DNA of 39,137 bases. Origin: Planctomycetota bacterium. GTDB taxonomy: Bacteria; Planctomycetota; Planctomycetia; Pirellulales; Pirellulaceae. Shown piece by piece: positions 10,498 through 28,739 of the stretch. Made by a program: the position numbers and the translations under genes. The notes below the pieces were generated by a model. That model saw only the letters and a list, made by a program, of their open reading frames with translations, ran no database searches and was not told the origin of the DNA. Each line of letters begins with the position of its first letter. The first letter of the stretch is position 1. The stretch lies in contig JAQCHP010000032.1 of the NCBI GenBank assembly GCA_027619595.1, positions 1-39,137 on the forward strand, written 5' to 3'.

Positions 10498-11784
10498 TTA
10501 GGGGCCAAAGCAAAGGCACACCACCTGACCCGACGCTGCAATTCCCAACTTAAGCCACGCCCCGGGTTGGGCGAGCCTCGTTTGCTGAACAACGTTCACG
10601 GCGCAATTGGGATCCGGTTCGCGATAATTCGGATGACGTGGCAACTCACCATACATTTGCCCATAAATACTGGCGGCCATTTCTACAGCACCAGAACCCG
10701 CCCCGAGATTGCCAAAATTCGCTTTGGGGGCAATCACGGGCACTTGGGCCAAAACGTCCGTGATGCCCTGTGACTCCGCAATATCACTCTCGGGAGTACT
10801 TAGACCATGGGCATTGACATGGCAAACCTGATCGGGAGAGACACCAGCATTGGATAAACAACGCTGAATCGACTGACGGACGGCAGCTCTTTTGCTTTCA
10901 CGATCGGGTCGCGTTGCGTGCGTGGCAGCCCCCCCCAGGAACGTCGCGAGTATTCTCGCTCCTCGCCGTACGGCATGTTCGCGGTGTTCAAGCACCATCA
11001 CGGCGGAACCCTCACCATTCACCATTCCGTCCCGTGCCAAATCAAACGGCCGGCACGCTGCCGTTGGATCATCATTTCGACGGGAAAGTTGCCGGTCACC
11101 CCGAAAGACCAACGGGGTCATGATGAGCCGCGAACCACTGCCCCCAGTTAACATAAAGTCGGCGGCCCCCCGTTGAATCACCCGAGCCGCCTCGAGAACC
11201 GCCAGCAGACTGGAAACATCACCGGAAACCAACGTATTGCAAGGGCCCTGAGCGTTGTGAGCGATACTCACATGACAGGCAGACATGTTCGGCAGGTACT
11301 TCAGTAACCAGAGGGGATAGACCCGCAATGGAAACTGTTCTCCGAATAGCTGCACGCGAAAATCACCGTCGGAGACACAATGATGAAATAAATCTGCCAA
11401 TTCACCGAGTTCGGCGTAAAGCATCTCGGCACCGAGAACAATCCCCATCCTCAGGGGGTCAATTTCGTTGCCGGGCTCACCGAAACCAGCGTCGTCGATG
11501 GCGAGGCTCGCTGCAGCGACAGCTGTTTGAATTTCTCGCGACATGACCTTGAGACTTTTCCGGGGGCGAATCAGCTGTTTGGGCTCAAAATCCAACAATT
11601 CGCCACCGAACTGAACTGGCTGTCGGCTCGCATCCCACGCCCGAAGCGCACGAACCCCCGATGCGCCTTGCAGCAGCGCCTGCCAATAAGCGGACCCAAC
11701 GTTATGCCCCTGGCCTTGCCCAACAGGGCTAATGACGCCCAGGCCCGTGGCCACTATCTCTCGCATCGGCAGATCTGACGTCAT
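10498..11784 (-). CDS. Ketosynthase-fold protein of the FabF family lacking the catalytic cysteine
   Basis: The 428-residue product aligns along its length with beta-ketoacyl-ACP synthase II: EIVATGLGVISPVG at the start, then GPCNTLVSGDVSSLL, AARVIQRGAADFMLTGG, RPFDLARDGMVNGEGSAVMVLE, VNAHGLSTPESD and PKANFGNLGAG. Counting from the conserved GP to AARVI (17 residues, as in FabF), the nucleophile Cys is replaced by Asp189. The first catalytic His is kept (H326 in NAHG) and so is the Lys (K354), but the second His is Asn359 (GH becomes GN). The C-terminal NSFGFGG motif is missing. It should therefore not condense acyl chains by itself. Chain-length-factor-type partners of ketosynthases are a known precedent, but no active partner is adjacent. 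Start ATG 11784 or 11766. Confidence 0.85.
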   Translation of the reverse strand: MTSDLPMREIVATGLGVISPVGQGQGHNVGSAYWQALLQGASGVRALRAWDASRQPVQFGGELLDFEPKQLIRPRKSLKVMSREIQTAVAAASLAIDDAGFGEPGNEIDPLRMGIVLGAEMLYAELGELADLFHHCVSDGDFRVQLFGEQFPLRVYPLWLLKYLPNMSACHVSIAHNAQGPCNTLVSGDVSSLLAVLEAARVIQRGAADFMLTGGSGSRLIMTPLVFRGDRQLSRRNDDPTAACRPFDLARDGMVNGEGSAVMVLEHREHAVRRGARILATFLGGAATHATRPDRESKRAAVRQSIQRCLSNAGVSPDQVCHVNAHGLSTPESDIAESQGITDVLAQVPVIAPKANFGNLGAGSGAVEMAASIYGQMYGELPRHPNYREPDPNCAVNVVQQTRLAQPGAWLKLGIAASGQVVCLCFGP

Positions 11785-12182
11785 GGTTTCGCTCGCCCCG
11801 TAGGCCCAAAAAATCAGCCAAACAAGGGGCAATTATTTCCAAAAGGGGCGACGCTAAAAATACAAATGTTCACACCGATGTGGCGGCCATTTGCGGCTGC
11901 AGCAGGGGAGTTCCTGCAGCCGAAGGGGACCGCCCGGCCACGATGAACAATTCCGTGAAAAAGTACCGAAAAATCAAGTTACCATATTGGTTCCGGATTG
12001 GGGGGATAAGCCCCCCCTGGCTCTTGTCTAAAAATTCGTTCCTGCGTTACCGATATCGGATTGCGCGGTTTCGATTTCAGCCTTCTAAGGAATCGTAAGC
12101 GCCGCGGCCCCTCGGTCCGTGACGGTTAAAGGAAACCCGTTCGACGACATACCTACTGGACGTATTACACAGGTATAGAGCC
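11785..12182. other. 398-bp divergent intergenic region with two strong hairpins
   Basis: The region lies between the ketosynthase-like gene (minus) and the interrupted desaturase (plus) and should hold both promoters. Two perfect inverted repeats stand out: CGGCTGCAG / CTGCAGCCG (11894-11902 and 11914-11922, 11-base loop) and a run of six G, five bases, then six C (12000-12016). Neither is followed by a T-run, so they look like leader or operator structures and not simple terminators. No convincing open frame is present. Confidence 0.5.
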
Positions 12183-13373
12183 ATGATCGGCAAGACTGAC
12201 AAAATCACGTCTCCATTTTCGATTGCAGAAGCCCGCTCCTTGGTCAAGGATTTGTTTCCGCCGAACCTCGCTATTTATTGGACCGATTTTCTCGGCACGT
12301 ACTTTTTGGGAATATTCTGTTTTCAGCGCGTCCGCGGTGGGCCACTCTGGGTACCGCATCAGGGTTGGACGGGTCAGTGGTCACAAGTTACCTGGTTTCT
12401 TGCCTCTTGCCTACTGTTCTATCGGGCAGCCATGTTCATCCACGAATTAGTCCACCAGCGCAACGACCACATGTCTCAATTCCGCCACGCATGGAATCTG
12501 CTCTGTGGCATTCCCTTCCTCATGCCGCTGTTTGTTTACTACCCACATATCGATCACCATCGCCGTAGTCACTATGGCACACACCATGACGGCGAATATC
12601 TTCCGCTGGCACATTTTCGCGTGTTTTTTTTGGTGTTCTACCTATCGTGGAGCTTTATTATTCCAATTTTGGCCGTGTTCCGCTTCCTTATTCTAACACC
12701 CGTTGCGTGGGTTTTCCCTGCGGTAAGGACCTGGGTTCACGCACGGTGCTCCACCATGGTCATGGATCCCAGCTATATTCGGCCATTGCCTAGCCCCCGT
12801 GTATTGCAAGAAATCCGTTGGCAAGAAGCTTGTTGTTTTGCCTGGTGCTGGGGAGTTGCCGTTGTTCCGCCGCTGGTGTTGGGCCATTCTTCACTGCCGT
12901 TCGTGATTCATGCCTATCTGACGGGAGTCGTCATCGTCCTATTAAATTCAATCCGGACCTTGGGAGCCCACCGGTGGAGCAACCAAGGGGGCGAAATGAC
13001 GTATGTCGAGCAACTACTGGATTCCGTGAACTATCCACATCATGTTTGGCTGAGTGAATTTTGAGGGCCGGTAGGAACTCGCTTTCACGCCCTGCATCAC
13101 CTCTTTCCGTCGCTTCCGTACCACGCCTTGTCTGAGGCGCATCGCCGATTGATGCAAGGGTTGCCGTCGGACTCTCCTTACCATCGTACGGAGGAGGTTT
13201 CATTGGCGGTGGGACTCGCCAAGCTTGTGTTCCAGCGGCCCGCTGAAGCAACTCCCACCCGTCGCTTGCCTAAGTTCCTCGCCGCCGACGCCCCCAAGTC
13301 GCGTCGTCGTGTACGGCAAAATGGAACCGAGCGACGGAGCATTCAATGGAGATCGGACAGCACCGCGTCATAG
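12183..13373 (+). pseudogene. Fatty-acid desaturase interrupted by one in-frame TGA
   Basis: This is a membrane di-iron desaturase/hydroxylase-type enzyme. Frame 12183 encodes 293 residues with His box 1 (HELVHQR, 87-93), box 2 (HIDHHRRSH, 122-130, plus HH 134-135) and several membrane segments, then stops at TGA 13062-13064. The same frame continues without a shift into GPVGTRFHALHHLFPSLPYH, which contains the essential third His box, and runs to TAG 13371-13373. Read through, the protein is 396 residues, normal for the family. The residue usually found at the stop position is probably Trp (TGG), so a single G-to-A change explains it. The 293-residue product would lack an iron ligand set and be inactive. 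The tail overlaps the convergent GNAT-like gene by 31 bp. Confidence 0.85.
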
Positions 13374-14479
13374 AGACGATAGGTCTTGTCAAGCTTCGCG
13401 CCACCCTTTTCCAATGTGCCGCGCGATAGTTTGTTGCTCTCTAAAACCCAAGAAAACTCCGCTTCGCTGATTCCCCATGATTTGATGGTCGGTACGAGCT
13501 GTGCCAGCAATAGCAGTCCGACTCCCCACTTCTGATACTCCGGGACCACATTGGTACTGATCATGCGGACGCGTTTAATCGCCCTTCGATTCCATAGCAA
13601 TCGAAGGAATCCAAACGGAAACAATCGCCCGTTGATGGCACGGATTCGCGGATTGTAATCCAACAGGGCAAATACCGCTCCGACCGGCTTGCCTTCCACT
13701 TCGGCGACGGCGGTCATTTCTGGCGCAATCAACCTTCGCAGGCCACCCGCAAAACGATCTATTTCTGCCGCCGTTAGGGGCACAAATCCCCACGTTCCCA
13801 CCAAAGACCGATTGTAGATTTCAAGAAACATTCGGACTTCTTCCCGAAATCGACGCGTGTTCATCGGGCGCAGGGTAATATTGAGACGACGAGTCGCCTC
13901 CGTCATAATGAAGGACATTTTGGCATCCAACTGGTCTAACATTTCGACGTGCCCCCAAAATGCAAAGAGGTCTTGCGTCTTTTTTAACCCACATGCTTCA
14001 AGGTGGTCACCGTAATACGGCGGATTATATGTCATGAGAAAAAAGGGGGAGCTGTCAAAGCCATCCACGAGTAATCCACATTCGTAATTCAGTGATGGAT
14101 TGCAAGGCCCTCGGACACATGTCATACCCTGCTGTCGCAACCACGTAGCCGCAGCACCAATCAATCCTCGACAAACGTCGGCTCGATCCACAAATTCCAG
14201 GAAACCGAAAAAACCACGCTGATCGTCGTACCGATCCAAATGGCCTTGATTGACGATCGCGGCGATACGGCCAACGGGACGTTCTCCTTGGTAAGCAATA
14301 AACGTCTGCGCACGTCCCTGAAGGTAAAAGGGATGGGGGCGAAACCCCAACAACTCTTGCTGTTGGCCTAGCAGCGGCGGAATCCAGTAGGGATCGTTTT
14401 TATAGATGGTCCACGGCAACTGCAAGAAATCCCGCTTGTGCCGCGAACTCGTGACTGGAACGATTCTCAGGTCCGCCAC
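13343..14479 (-). CDS. GNAT-like acyltransferase family protein
   Basis: The 378-residue product begins ADLRIVPV and carries a conserved N-terminal module (LPWTIYKNDPYWIPPLL, then FIAYQGERPVGRIAAIVN). The C-terminal GNAT-like module has EVEGKPVGAVFALLDYN, and later VPEYQKWGVGLLLLAQLV in the place of the acetyl-CoA pyrophosphate loop. The substrate is unknown. The start is GTG 14479: an AGGAGG box (14485-14490) stands five bases upstream, much better than the ATG at 14554, whose extra 25 residues are Lys/Asp-rich and unlike the family. It converges on the interrupted desaturase with a 31-bp overlap. The neighbourhood suggests a lipid or envelope role, but that is inference. Confidence 0.8.
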   Translation of the reverse strand: MADLRIVPVTSSRHKRDFLQLPWTIYKNDPYWIPPLLGQQQELLGFRPHPFYLQGRAQTFIAYQGERPVGRIAAIVNQGHLDRYDDQRGFFGFLEFVDRADVCRGLIGAAATWLRQQGMTCVRGPCNPSLNYECGLLVDGFDSSPFFLMTYNPPYYGDHLEACGLKKTQDLFAFWGHVEMLDQLDAKMSFIMTEATRRLNITLRPMNTRRFREEVRMFLEIYNRSLVGTWGFVPLTAAEIDRFAGGLRRLIAPEMTAVAEVEGKPVGAVFALLDYNPRIRAINGRLFPFGFLRLLWNRRAIKRVRMISTNVVPEYQKWGVGLLLLAQLVPTIKSWGISEAEFSWVLESNKLSRGTLEKGGAKLDKTYRLYDAVLSDLH

Positions 14480-14985
14480 TCCCGCCTCCTTTTCGTTGTG
14501 TCGTCGGTAACCGTCGTCTTTCGGCTTTTTAGTCTCTATCGTTGGTCGACGCATGGACAGAGAGTTGAAAGTAGAGCGGTAATCTGAAGTACCTCCCGAA
14601 GCACGTCGATTTTAGGTGAGATATCCGGTTTCCGCCCCCCCAGGGAGGGCAAATCGCCGCATTAGGTATTCCATTACAAATAGGGGCTTTACATCGTGCG
14701 CCACCGATCATAAACTGGGCTCGGGAATAAGCTCCCCCGTTGGAGGTATCCTTTCCATCAGCAGAACCGGCGGAACTGGCATCTGGAATGGATGCAGATT
14801 GTCGACAAACTATGTATAAAACACTTGCGAGAAACTGGCCGCCAACTAACCTGAATTAGGAGAGCCGTAAATCCAACGGAGTACCGTCGGCCACGCCGAA
14901 CCGTAGAAGTGGCTCCCAATTATTTCGTAACACTTGCTTCCTTTGATGTCACACCGTGATTACCGTTTCGCAAGGCACAACTCGG
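14480..14985. other. 506-bp divergent intergenic region
   Basis: No supported gene. The stretch separates the GNAT-like gene (minus) from the glycosyltransferase (plus). It contains the AGGAGG ribosome binding site of the former (14485-14490), a 10-bp perfect palindrome TTGTCGACAA (14799-14808), and a TATAAA (14815-14820) that could be a -10 element for plus-strand transcription, without a convincing -35. Confidence 0.4.
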
Positions 14986-20106: not shown

Positions 20107-21354
20107 CTACGCTTCGACCCGCTGTGGGTCGCCCGATTCAGACTGCTGCAAGCATCGGACAATCTGCCGTACCGCCTGCCGCAATCGGTTCTCGTTTTCC
20201 ACGAGCGCCATCCGCAGGTAGCCTTCACCAGCTTCTCCAAACCCACTGCCGGGGCTCACGGCAACATTCCCTTTTTCCAGTAGCATCAGGGCGAAATCCA
20301 TGGTGCTCATGCGGTTCCGCCATTCGGCCGGGATTTTGGCCCACACGAACATACCAGCTTTGGGCGGCGTCACGTCCCAACCGATTCTTCGCAAGCCGTC
20401 TACCAAGACATCCCGACGCCCTTGATAGATGAGCGACTGACTTTCGACTCCGGCATCGCCATGTCGCAGTGCCAGAATTGCCGCTATCTGAATGGCCTGA
20501 AACATTCCGTAATCATAGTAACCCTTGATCACCGCAAGGGCTTTCACCATTTCCGAGTTCCCACAACAGAAGCCCACCCGCCAGCCGGCCATGTTGTAGC
20601 CCTTGCTCATCGTGGTGAATTCCACACCCACATCGATGGCACCCGGTGCCGAAAGAAAACTGGGCGGCAGGTACCCATCAAACGCCACATCGGCGTAGGC
20701 GAAATCACTAATCACCATGAACTCGTACCGTTTGGCCAGCTTCACGACTTCACGAAAAAAACCTGGCTCCACCGTCGCCGAAGAAGGATTGTGTGGATAG
20801 TTGATGATCAAGAGTTTTGGTTTGGGATACAGGTGTTCACATGTGTACGCGACGTTCTTCAAAAAATCGTCCGCGTCGGCCACTTCGAGCGCGATGACGT
20901 TTCCTGCAGCCAATGCCACCGCATACGTGTGGACGGGAAAATAGGGATTCGGCACGATGGCCGTATCGCCAGGTCCCATCAGTGCTAAACACATATGCGA
21001 GAAACCCTCTTTGGAACCCAAACAAACGATGGTTTCTGTTTCCGGGTCAAGTCTCACGCCGTACTTCTTTAGATACTTGCTGGCAGCTTCCTTGCGCAGA
21101 TTCAGCAAACCGTTGGACTTGCTATATCCGTGGTTGTTTGGATCGTGAGCCGCTTCCGCCAATTTCTCGATGACCAACGGGTCGGGCGGATCGGATGGGT
21201 TGCCCATACCAAGATCGATCACGTCGTGACCTGCACGGCGTTTTTGGTAGAGCAGATTATTGATCCGGCCAAACATATACGGAGGGAGTCGCCGTACGCG
21301 GTCGGCCAGCTGAATCGGGAACTTACTCTGAGATTCGGGAGCACTATCGGTCAT
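20107..21354 (-). CDS. PLP-dependent class I aminotransferase (alanine/LL-diaminopimelate aminotransferase-like)
   Basis: The 415-residue fold-type I aminotransferase has [14 protein letters not shown] and [15 protein letters not shown] near the start. [11 protein letters not shown] holds the Asn/Pro motif, [13 protein letters not shown] the Asp/Tyr that contact PLP, and [16 protein letters not shown] the Schiff-base Lys251. The MGNPSDPPD and [10 protein letters not shown] patterns fit the AlaC/LL-DAP aminotransferase group, so pyruvate-glutamate or diaminopimelate chemistry is likely; sequence alone does not choose. ATG 21354 is preferred; the frame is open to 21498, but the added residues do not match the family. 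No lysine or alanine pathway genes adjoin it. Confidence 0.9.
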
Positions 21355-21523
21355 GGAAGCGTACCAGGAACAGTTGTAAACCGAATTGCTTCGCCAAGTT
21401 GCGAAGCTACCCCTGAGAATAGTCTGTAATCGCACCAACGGGAACGCCTCGTCGGGGAAGCTGCTCAGCGCCCCCGGCACGAAGTCGTATTCTCTCAAAA
21501 CAAACTTTTTCCCCCGACCGCGG

Positions 21524-27044: not shown

Positions 27045-28739
27045 TTGGTTGATCCGACTCGATATCGCAACATAGGCTTTTCCCTCCATCATTCGGCGTT
27101 GTGCCGGCCCGATCAAATTGCAATTGCCGAACCGACGTTGCGACGGGTTGGAAAAGCCAGAGAACATCGCGGGGCCTACCGCTGCGTAACTTTTGCCGAT
27201 TTCGACCGCGACACCGACCAACTGGCGGCGGCCATGTTGGCCCGCGGTTTACGGCCTCGTATGCGCGTCGCTCTCCTAGTGCCACCCAGTATCGATTTTA
27301 TGGCTTTTACATTTGCTTTGTTTAAGGCGGGAGCCGTCATCGTGCTGATTGACCCTGGAATAGGTCGCCAGAATATGATCTCGTGCCTTTCCGACGCGCG
27401 TCCTGAGGGATTTATAGGGGTCCCCCGTGCTCAGGCCGCACGCGCGTGGTTTCACCGACGTTTCCCTGTTCCCAGGCTGTTGGTAACCGTCGGGTGGCGC
27501 GGTTGGTGGGGCGGCACGACCGCGACGCAACTTCGCGCCGACGAAGTCAGCCCACGACTTCCGCTGCTGGATGCGAATTCTTCCGACGCGGCAATCATCT
27601 TCACAAGCGGCAGCACCGGCCCCCCCAAAGGGGTCCTCTATTCGCATGAAAATTTCCTACACCAAGTTACCGCGTTGCAAACGTATTATGACATTTCACC
27701 GGGTAGCGTCGATGTTCCATGCTTTCCATTGTTTGCGCTCTTCAACCTGGCCATGGGGGTAACGACCGTGATACCCCGCATGGACGCCACGCGTCCCGCC
27801 AAGGCAAATCCACAGCATATACTGCAAGCCATTCAGGACTGGCAAGCAGATCAAGCCTTTGCATCTCCAGCGCTTTGGAACGTCGTGGGACGATATTGCG
27901 AAAAAAACAACCTACATGTCCCGACACTGAAGCGCGTGCTGTCGGCCGGAGCCCCCGTACCTCCGCACGTCTTGCGGCGCATGAGGGACGCGATCGGTAG
28001 TTCTGGTTGCGTCCATACACCGTACGGAGCCACCGAAGCGTTACCGGTCGCTTCAATTACTGACCGTGAAGTACTGGGAGAAACAGAGTGCCGGTCCGCG
28101 GAAGGTCATGGCACATGCGTCGGGACCCGGTTCCCAGGCATCGATTGGATGATTATTCGGATTCGAGATACTGCGATTGAGTCCCTCGACAAAGCGGAGC
28201 CACTGCCGACGGGAACTATTGGCGAATTAATTGTCCGCGGGCCCGTGGTAACTTGCGAATATGTGACGCGTACCGATATGAACGCCGTCGCCAAAATTCG
28301 TGACGGCGACCAGACGTGGCACCGCATGGGAGATGTCGGTTATTTGGACGAACAAGAACGGTTCTGGTTTTGCGGCAGGAAAAGCCACCGCATCGAAACG
28401 GCTGAAGGAACGCTCTTTACCATACCCTGCGAGGCCATTGCCAACGGTCATCCGAGAGTTTACCGATCCGCATTGGTCCCACTGGGCGTAATTGGCCGAC
28501 AGCAGCCAGCTTTGGTCGTTGAGTGCTGGCCTGAGCACCGAATTCGTTCGCGCCGAGATGCGGAACGACTTAGATCCGAAGTCTATGCTCGGTTACAGGA
28601 ATTTGCGCTAACGCGAACGATCGTACGTGAACACATCCTCTTCCGCCGAACTCTTCCGGTTGACATCCGCCACAACGCCAAGATCTTTCGAGAAAAGTTG
28701 GCTGTATGGGCCAACAAAAAACTACGCTTTCGCAGCTGA
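27045..28739 (+). CDS. oleC: OleC-type AMP-dependent synthetase (beta-lactone synthetase family)
   Basis: OleC activates 2-alkyl-3-hydroxy fatty acids with ATP and closes them to beta-lactones in long-chain olefin synthesis. The 564-residue product has the ANL core: TSGSTGPPKG (187-196), PYGATEALPV (326-335) and RMGDVGYLDEQERFWFCGRKSHR. OleC-specific stretches are FPLFALFNLAMGVTTVIPRMDATRPAKA and LSAGAPVPPHVLRRM, which separate it from ordinary acyl-CoA ligases. The start is TTG 27045 behind a purine-rich box; the N-terminus then aligns with the family (RPDQIAIAEP). OleA, OleB and OleD are not adjacent, so the pathway must be split or the enzyme is used differently. Confidence 0.85.
   Translation: MVDPTRYRNIGFSLHHSALCRPDQIAIAEPTLRRVGKAREHRGAYRCVTFADFDRDTDQLAAAMLARGLRPRMRVALLVPPSIDFMAFTFALFKAGAVIVLIDPGIGRQNMISCLSDARPEGFIGVPRAQAARAWFHRRFPVPRLLVTVGWRGWWGGTTATQLRADEVSPRLPLLDANSSDAAIIFTSGSTGPPKGVLYSHENFLHQVTALQTYYDISPGSVDVPCFPLFALFNLAMGVTTVIPRMDATRPAKANPQHILQAIQDWQADQAFASPALWNVVGRYCEKNNLHVPTLKRVLSAGAPVPPHVLRRMRDAIGSSGCVHTPYGATEALPVASITDREVLGETECRSAEGHGTCVGTRFPGIDWMIIRIRDTAIESLDKAEPLPTGTIGELIVRGPVVTCEYVTRTDMNAVAKIRDGDQTWHRMGDVGYLDEQERFWFCGRKSHRIETAEGTLFTIPCEAIANGHPRVYRSALVPLGVIGRQQPALVVECWPEHRIRSRRDAERLRSEVYARLQEFALTRTIVREHILFRRTLPVDIRHNAKIFREKLAVWANKKLRFRS

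Follow-up and report, generated by a model that had tools for sequence, protein, structure and literature searches.

A conserved cysteine-less FabF-fold protein of Pirellulales has an acidic residue at the ketosynthase nucleophile position and may be a relocated KSbeta subunit

The window analysed here is the whole 39,137-nucleotide stretch of contig JAQCHP010000032.1 (GenBank assembly GCA_027619595.1, forward strand) from a planctomycete of the family Pirellulaceae, order Pirellulales. It contains a gene for a ketosynthase (KS) homologue that lacks the catalytic cysteine, here called KS-D; a desaturase homologue on the opposite strand separates it from a homologue of the N-acyltransferase YghO. 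The features are as follows, with frequencies given for 68 aligned KS-D sequences.

10498–11784, minus strand: KS-D, a cysteine-less FabF-fold protein of 428 residues (open reading frame, Pfam, alignment and AlphaFold2 model)
10525–10527, minus strand: codon of Gln420, conserved in the replaced C-terminal loop (Gln in 65 of 68; Gln also in 35 of 35 KSalpha sequences)
10708–10710, minus strand: codon of Asn359, at the second-His position (Asn in 39 of 68, His in 24 of 68)
10723–10725, minus strand: codon of Lys354, kept (Lys in 67 of 68)
10807–10809, minus strand: codon of His326, the NAHG histidine, kept (His in 56 of 68)
11218–11220, minus strand: codon of Asp189, at the ketosynthase Cys position (alignment; counted from the ATG at 11784)
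12183–13064, plus strand: membrane fatty-acid desaturase homologue, divergent from KS-D (sequence homology; the layout recurs at three other loci, L151, L152 and L154)
13343–14554, minus strand: YghO-family N-acyltransferase (GNAT), a homologue of bacterial ceramide synthase (sequence homology)

The KS-D reading frame is open over 10498–11832 of the minus strand, up to a TTG at 11832, and the ATG at 11784 yields the protein of 428 residues. Pfam detects both the ketoacyl-synt domain (E = 7.8e-31) and its C-terminal partner (1.1e-15), and the score against the NCBIfam fabF equivalog model, 258.5 bits, falls below the cut-off of 493.75 bits. An AlphaFold2 model (pLDDT 84.8, pTM 0.89) superimposes on FabF crystal structures with a Z-score of about 56 across about 390 residues, corresponding to the full FabF fold; the structural aligner ranks FabF at the top and the KS/CLF chains 1tqy_A, 6kxf_A and 6kxd_A further down. 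The double thiolase fold of about 410 residues typical of FabF/KAS II is present, the nucleophilic Cys is missing and the catalytic set of two His and a Lys is incomplete, the second His being Asn359.

The nucleophile column was set by alignment with FabF of Thermus and Synechocystis and with the Cys-bearing ketosynthases of the same genome. The stretch from GP to AAR measures 22 residues in KS-D and FabF alike, and Asp189 fills the Cys column. In the model, Asp189 sits at the N-terminal end of helix 188–204, as the nucleophilic Cys of FabF does. The alignment confirms the original prediction, made from the sequence of the window, that Asp189 replaces Cys at FabF-like spacing and Asn359 the second His, and that the NSFGFGG motif is gone while the NAHG His (His326) and the Lys (Lys354) are kept; the sole remnants of NSFGFGG are Gly419 and Gln420. 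Cys182 was considered as a substitute nucleophile and rejected, as it occupies the GPN position, which is Asn in most relatives. An acyl chain carried by ACP can be accepted by Cys but not by a carboxylate. KS-D is a FabF-type thiolase fold without this acyl-accepting Cys and would therefore not be expected to carry out condensation by itself.

The nucleophile position is acidic in all 68 aligned KS-D sequences, query included, with Asp in 47 and Glu in 21 (two of 70 sequences, of 330 residues or shorter, were dropped); an earlier, overlapping tally that included three sequences from other orders or classes gave 49 Asp and 24 Glu among 73. The contrast sequences have Cys here, in 11 of 11 of the FabF type and 35 of 35 KSalpha. 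As far as the alignment goes, the position stays acidic while Asp and Glu replace each other, and Asp itself is nothing special; what survives of the proposed Asp variant is the conserved position rather than the residue. Asn in place of the second His is the most frequent state in the family (39 of 68) and no sign of additional decay.

Matches at E<=1e-85, the range of likely KS-D orthologues (listed sequences are 42–53% identical), occur in 152 of 196 Pirellulales genomes, all of which have some ketosynthase match. Among 24 full-length members the identity to the query is 41–51%, and 60 columns are invariant. Judged from these comparisons, KS-D is a conserved subfamily and no lone decayed gene. 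It is accordingly very improbable that KS-D is a decaying paralogue without function, as might be read from the variable second and sometimes first His, the long branch of the query in the tree (1.11) and the in-frame TGA of the neighbouring desaturase gene: the identity and invariant columns, the spread over 152 genomes and the recurrent neighbours all speak against it. Neither of the two outcomes named in advance as contrary to a distinct subfamily, a Cys at the nucleophile position or a single degenerate gene, was found, the alignment giving Asp189 and the tree conserved relatives.

Some KS-D loci have peculiarities of their own. L053, on a contig shared with L063, holds two diverged copies inside a 4-kb stretch, oppositely oriented and separated by an SDR gene, each 48–49% identical to the query. 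The 330,760-base contig BPJU01000006 (L048, L060; G144:C6) carries the KS-D region inverted at both ends, likely an assembly artefact, and KS-D genes resembling those of Pirellulales in records titled Nealsonbacteria and Kuenenia (L040, L051) probably lie on misbinned contigs.

A tree of 82 ketosynthases was calculated from a set in which KS-D is represented by the query and a random 36 of the sequences closest to it (L061, the L129 fragment and sequences of fewer than 330 residues being omitted). Fifty planctomycete Cys-less sequences form one group with the Streptomyces KSbeta (100/99). The Streptomyces protein is nested in the Cys-less clade (91/83), yet with a branch length of 2.56 its placement is unsure. 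Next to the Cys-less group (100/97) stand four sequences with Cys, each from the first of two tandem KS genes in family f34; the second genes of tandem pairs form a separate group (100/99), which includes a ketosynthase on contig C224 of the genome studied here. Membership of this second group, KSalpha, was assigned mostly by score across genomes, ten members having been tested in the tree.

Gene order in deeper Planctomycetota agrees with this division. Among 13 loci fetched for a KSbeta-clade gene, nine show the order dehydratase–ACP–dehydratase–KSbeta–KSalpha (the contig start truncating KSalpha in L204), two break off at KSbeta, where the contig ends, and two have the KSbeta–KSalpha pair only, so that KSalpha lies beside KSbeta in 11 of 13 and a contig end intervenes in the other two. 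KSbeta is Cys-less in nine of the 13 (four Glu, two Asp, two Asn, one Ser) and has Cys in the four loci of family f34. In Pirellulales the ACP and second dehydratase genes lie upstream of KSalpha with no KSbeta between, at 30 of 30 loci read, and no Cys-bearing ketosynthase was found in the flanks (up to 8 kb on each side) of any Pirellulales KS-D locus read, the window included. The description of the gene as standing alone holds for the window and these other loci; distant members of the clade do adjoin a Cys-bearing ketosynthase. By tree and gene order, KS-D belongs to the clade of operon-borne planctomycete KSbeta, and the distinct subfamily originally suggested is found as one Cys-less clade in which all 68 aligned KS-D sequences are acidic. 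The simplest reading is a single loss of Cys in KSbeta, which then left the operon and duplicated into KS-D and a second protein, KS-E; the tree is rooted at its midpoint only and does not prove a single loss.

The genome contains five genes with a PF00109 match. KS-E is its second cysteine-less ketosynthase, with Glu at the nucleophile position, and follows fabF in a fatty-acid operon on contig C253 (fabD-like acyltransferase, FabG-like SDR, Cys-bearing fabF, a gene without a Pfam match, KS-E). A Glu/His/Lys/Asn tetrad is present in 37 of 37 KS-E sequences, 31 from Pirellulales and six from family f21 (one of 38, of 330 residues or shorter, was dropped, and one Pirellulales sequence is counted twice, L111 being identical to L208). 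KS-E as a replacement for FabH was rejected as the main reading, since 37 of the 40 genomes searched have a FabH above the family cut-off; the present genome is among the 40 and outside the 37. The search for a Cys-bearing paralogue elsewhere in the genome, proposed at the outset, yielded a candidate partner, the KSalpha gene at C224:71894–73168; its operon, which has no KSbeta, comprises by Pfam two FabA-like domains, a PP-binding protein (ACP) and the ketosynthase. Another Cys-bearing ketosynthase, on contig C6, lies near a FabA-like protein, a KS III-like protein and a flavin oxidoreductase.

Across the phylum, KSalpha and KSbeta tend to occur together. In a sample of 149 planctomycete genomes, 22 have KSalpha at E<=1e-120, and all 22 have a KSbeta-clade gene: 18 by a match at E<=1e-56, G306 by the gene pair and the last three (family f23) by an unlinked Glu-type KSbeta found on a targeted look. 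In two further genomes KSbeta occurs without KSalpha, the contig ending at KSbeta in both. Fisher's test gives 6e-19 for the counts that preceded the targeted look (19, 3, 2, 125), for genomes that are related and with the 125 not read one by one. In the unlinked KSbeta of family f23 (L279, L282, L283), Glu takes the place of both the Cys and the second His, and Gly or Ser that of the Lys. Of the 196 Pirellulales genomes, 187 have KSalpha at E<=1e-160; KS-D is present in five of the other nine, which show no clear KSalpha (G011, G030, G037, G052 and G085, with completeness of 95, 95, 73, 96 and 62%, respectively), and this slightly lowers our confidence in the KSbeta reading given below. The counts 152/196, 187/196, 22 and 18, as well as the 135 and 17 given below, were taken by eye from search tables.

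In type II polyketide synthases (PKS), an active ketosynthase forms an obligate pair with one devoid of catalytic residues, and their interface forms the acyl channel (PMC12664062; statements on papers cited by PMC accession refer to the extracts consulted). Given the kinship of KS-D with the KSbeta of a KSbeta–KSalpha operon, pairing of this type is the best model, and the partner-type role raised in the original prediction is the best reading of the clade and of the operon of its relatives. From the fold, the active-site residue, the clade, the operon in relatives, the candidate partner gene and the neighbours, we infer, tentatively and with rather less than full conviction, that KS-D is a relocated, chain-length-factor-like KSbeta subunit that pairs with KSalpha to set an acyl chain, possibly for ceramide. 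In Pirellulales, KSbeta would then exist outside the operon, as a KS-E copy in the fatty-acid operon (in this genome) and a KS-D copy in lipid-gene neighbourhoods. KS-D would probably pair with the Cys-bearing KSalpha (C224:71894–73168) and shape its acyl pocket, which in turn would set the chain length or type of the acyl-ACP; at this and several other loci, the YghO-type ceramide N-acyltransferase next to it, and the desaturase, may draw on this acyl group. Against KSalpha as the partner stand the lack of linkage between the two genes at the Pirellulales loci read and the lower frequency of KS-D (152 of 196 genomes, versus 187 for KSalpha), although KS-E could serve elsewhere. The partner might also be FabF, KS-E or KS-D itself.

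Retention of the His and Lys is not required of a pure chain-length factor, yet KS-D mostly keeps both. The decarboxylating ketosynthases known to us carry Gln at the Cys position, not an acid. KS-D, and KS-E with it, could nevertheless act as a malonyl-ACP decarboxylase of the KS-Q type, using His326, Asn or His359 and Lys354 to make acetyl-ACP starters. The conservation of these residues in KS-D (first His in 56, Lys in 67 and Asn or His at position 359 in 63 of the 68) and the invariant KS-E tetrad are compatible with such a role, and priming ketosynthases use a Cys-His-Asn set (PMC12664062), so that Asn359 need not abolish decarboxylation. We nevertheless consider this unlikely: KS-D has Asp where KS-Q has Gln, FabH is above its cut-off in 37 of 40 genomes, with no starter step apparently missing in the relatives, and the KSbeta of family f23 have Gly or Ser in place of the Lys and Glu at position 359.

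The acid could itself be catalytic, the carboxylate together with His326, Asn359 and Lys354 carrying out another acyl-ACP reaction (transfer, hydrolysis or dehydration) that serves the adjacent N-acyltransferase. In its favour are the conservation of acidity despite the swapping of Asp and Glu, unlike in a plain loss of Cys, and both the identical tetrad of all 37 KS-E sequences and the recurrence of acyl-lipid genes nearby. Three of the nine Cys-less operon-borne KSbeta, however, have Asn, Asn and Ser, so that acidity is not needed throughout the clade, and we regard a catalytic acid as rather less likely again. Slightly more doubtful still is its broadest form, in which KS-D and KS-E would make up a new catalytic class of the KS fold, with Asp/Glu-His-Asn-Lys instead of Cys-His-His-Lys, working on acyl-ACP with no acyl-enzyme and, in Pirellulales, providing or choosing the acyl chain of ceramide-type lipids made by the YghO-family N-acyltransferase.

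The GNAT-like neighbour noticed in the sequence is indeed present, and its identity can be sharpened to a YghO homologue, from the ceramide N-acyltransferase family. It shares 33–34% identity with Escherichia coli YghO over 362–380 residues, and YghO is listed as the enzyme presumed to serve as acyl-CoA N-acyltransferase in making dihydroceramide (PMC9386255). The neighbourhood survey covered 56 distinct KS-D genes, some chosen for a nearby GNAT; linkage was counted on the loci fetched earlier (scoring the two KS-D genes of L053 separately), where a GNAT lies within 3 kb of ten of the 35 genes fetched regardless of neighbours with at least 2.5 kb upstream. Of the same 35 genes, 11 have an extended SDR no farther than 6 kb away and none has the desaturase nearby. 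The layout of the window, in which the desaturase on the opposite strand separates KS-D from the GNAT, recurs in three other families (L151, L152, L154), at loci picked because a GNAT was near. The desaturase frame ends in a TGA (13062–13064) where the homologue in L049 has Trp, and homology continues in the same frame to about 13292; the stop is either a nonsense mutation or a sequence error in the metagenome-assembled genome.

The presence of KS-D is independent of GNAT, with KS-D in 135 of 174 genomes that have GNAT versus 17 of 22 that do not (p = 1.0 on hand counts; two of the GNAT-less genomes were taken to be G146 and G154, absent from the GNAT matches). A presence/absence link between KS-D and the ceramide synthase gene was therefore rejected, and the support that remains is physical linkage. 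In genus g20, five of six genomes have KS-D and none of the six has GNAT, nor a serine palmitoyltransferase (SPT) match better than 1e-59; at its loci (L140–L144) the genes next to KS-D code for an SDR, a FabG-like SDR and an MMPL/RND transporter, the last matched by the HAE3 and HpnN models with scores under cut-off. KS-D may have a role in providing acyl chains for ceramide-type lipids.

The genes spt and cerR are not clustered with KS-D in this genome, an SPT-like fusion being on contig C164 and an SDR homologue on C123; clustering of ceramide genes is not universal in known producers either, and Spt-like proteins are reported in 138 Planctomycetota genomes assembled from Black Sea metagenomes (PMC11334938). 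The fusion (L106:8135–11536, plus strand) is a single 1134-residue protein made up of a fatty acyl-AMP ligase (FAAL), an ACP and an SPT/BioF-like domain, of which the ligase matches its counterpart in the E. coli cluster that includes YghO with 32% identity over 569 residues, the ACP weakly and the SPT/BioF-like domain (against SPT) with 32% over 351 residues. Among the matches listed, the SPT/BioF-like domain mostly lies in an open frame of about 1100–1300 residues, and in some genomes of family f1 in one of about 2600. Solved SPT structures rank first in a PDB search with this domain. A firm SPT assignment was rejected, as the NCBIfam bioF model scores above SPT and none passes its cut-off, and we use 'SPT-like' only; another BioF-like protein of the genome (L092) is closer to E. 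coli SPT than the fusion domain is (36% versus 32%). In the window itself, the aminotransferase at 20107–21498 was likewise rejected as SPT: the models for alanine and LL-diaminopimelate aminotransferases score best, though neither reaches its cut-off. The genome encodes an extended SDR with distant similarity to E. coli CerR, and the SDR neighbour, considered as a possible CerR, is 25–32% identical to the E. coli CerR homologue, with its best NCBIfam score for HpnA, under cut-off. Further along the window (27045–28739, plus strand) lies an OleC-like acyl-AMP ligase gene, over the cut-off of NF006754 and with olefin beta-lactone synthetase models next, under theirs.

The substitution itself is already known. 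Among FabF paralogues of Rhodopirellula baltica, Cys163 is replaced by Asp in RB3714 and by Glu in RB4527 (Rattray et al., 2009; PMC2649909), and the authors, who also give other replacements in Kuenenia, suggest a different substrate and function. RB4527 has the Glu/His/Lys/Asn pattern of KS-E, while RB3714 shares the Asp and first His of KS-D and differs from it in having Ile at the Lys position; from the residues in print we infer that the two are orthologous to KS-E and KS-D, respectively. The extracts of that paper, a ladderane study, concern two sequences from one species, with no mention of a KSalpha partner, order-wide conservation or a ceramide context. In the parts of the open-access literature examined we met no other report of Asp or Glu at the ketosynthase Cys position, nor of the features that are new here: conservation across the order, the operon, a candidate partner and ceramide genes nearby.

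Among known systems, the KS/CLF pairs of type II PKS likewise place a Cys-less KS-fold subunit beside a Cys-bearing ketosynthase and an ACP, as in deeper Planctomycetota. The Streptomyces KSbeta has Gln/Asp/Lys/Arg, in contrast to acid/His/Lys/Asn in KS-D; KS-D is unlinked from KSalpha, and the deeper planctomycete pairs share an operon with two FabA-like dehydratases. A catalogue of KS–CLF pairs counts Planctomycetes among its phyla (PMC10132072) and may already include some of these deeper pairs. The very-long-chain fatty-acid cluster acpXL-fabZXL-fabF2XL-fabF1XL of Agrobacterium and rhizobia, compared by gene content, shares the ACP, the dehydratase and two tandem FabF genes (PMC11901934). 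The bacterial ceramide genes spt, cerR and bcerS/yghO are resembled by the FAAL–ACP–SPT-like fusion, the CerR-like SDR and the GNAT of the window; the extracts of the papers on that pathway name no ketosynthase in it (PMC9386255, PMC11087976, PMC11324152).

The analysis turns an active-site oddity noted in 2009 into a testable two-subunit system, consisting of a Cys-bearing KSalpha in a dehydratase–ACP–dehydratase operon and acidic KSbeta candidates. If it holds true, it would show how a lipid synthase widespread in Planctomycetota is built and why several FabF-like genes are kept, and would offer a gene-level handle on planctomycete sphingolipids.
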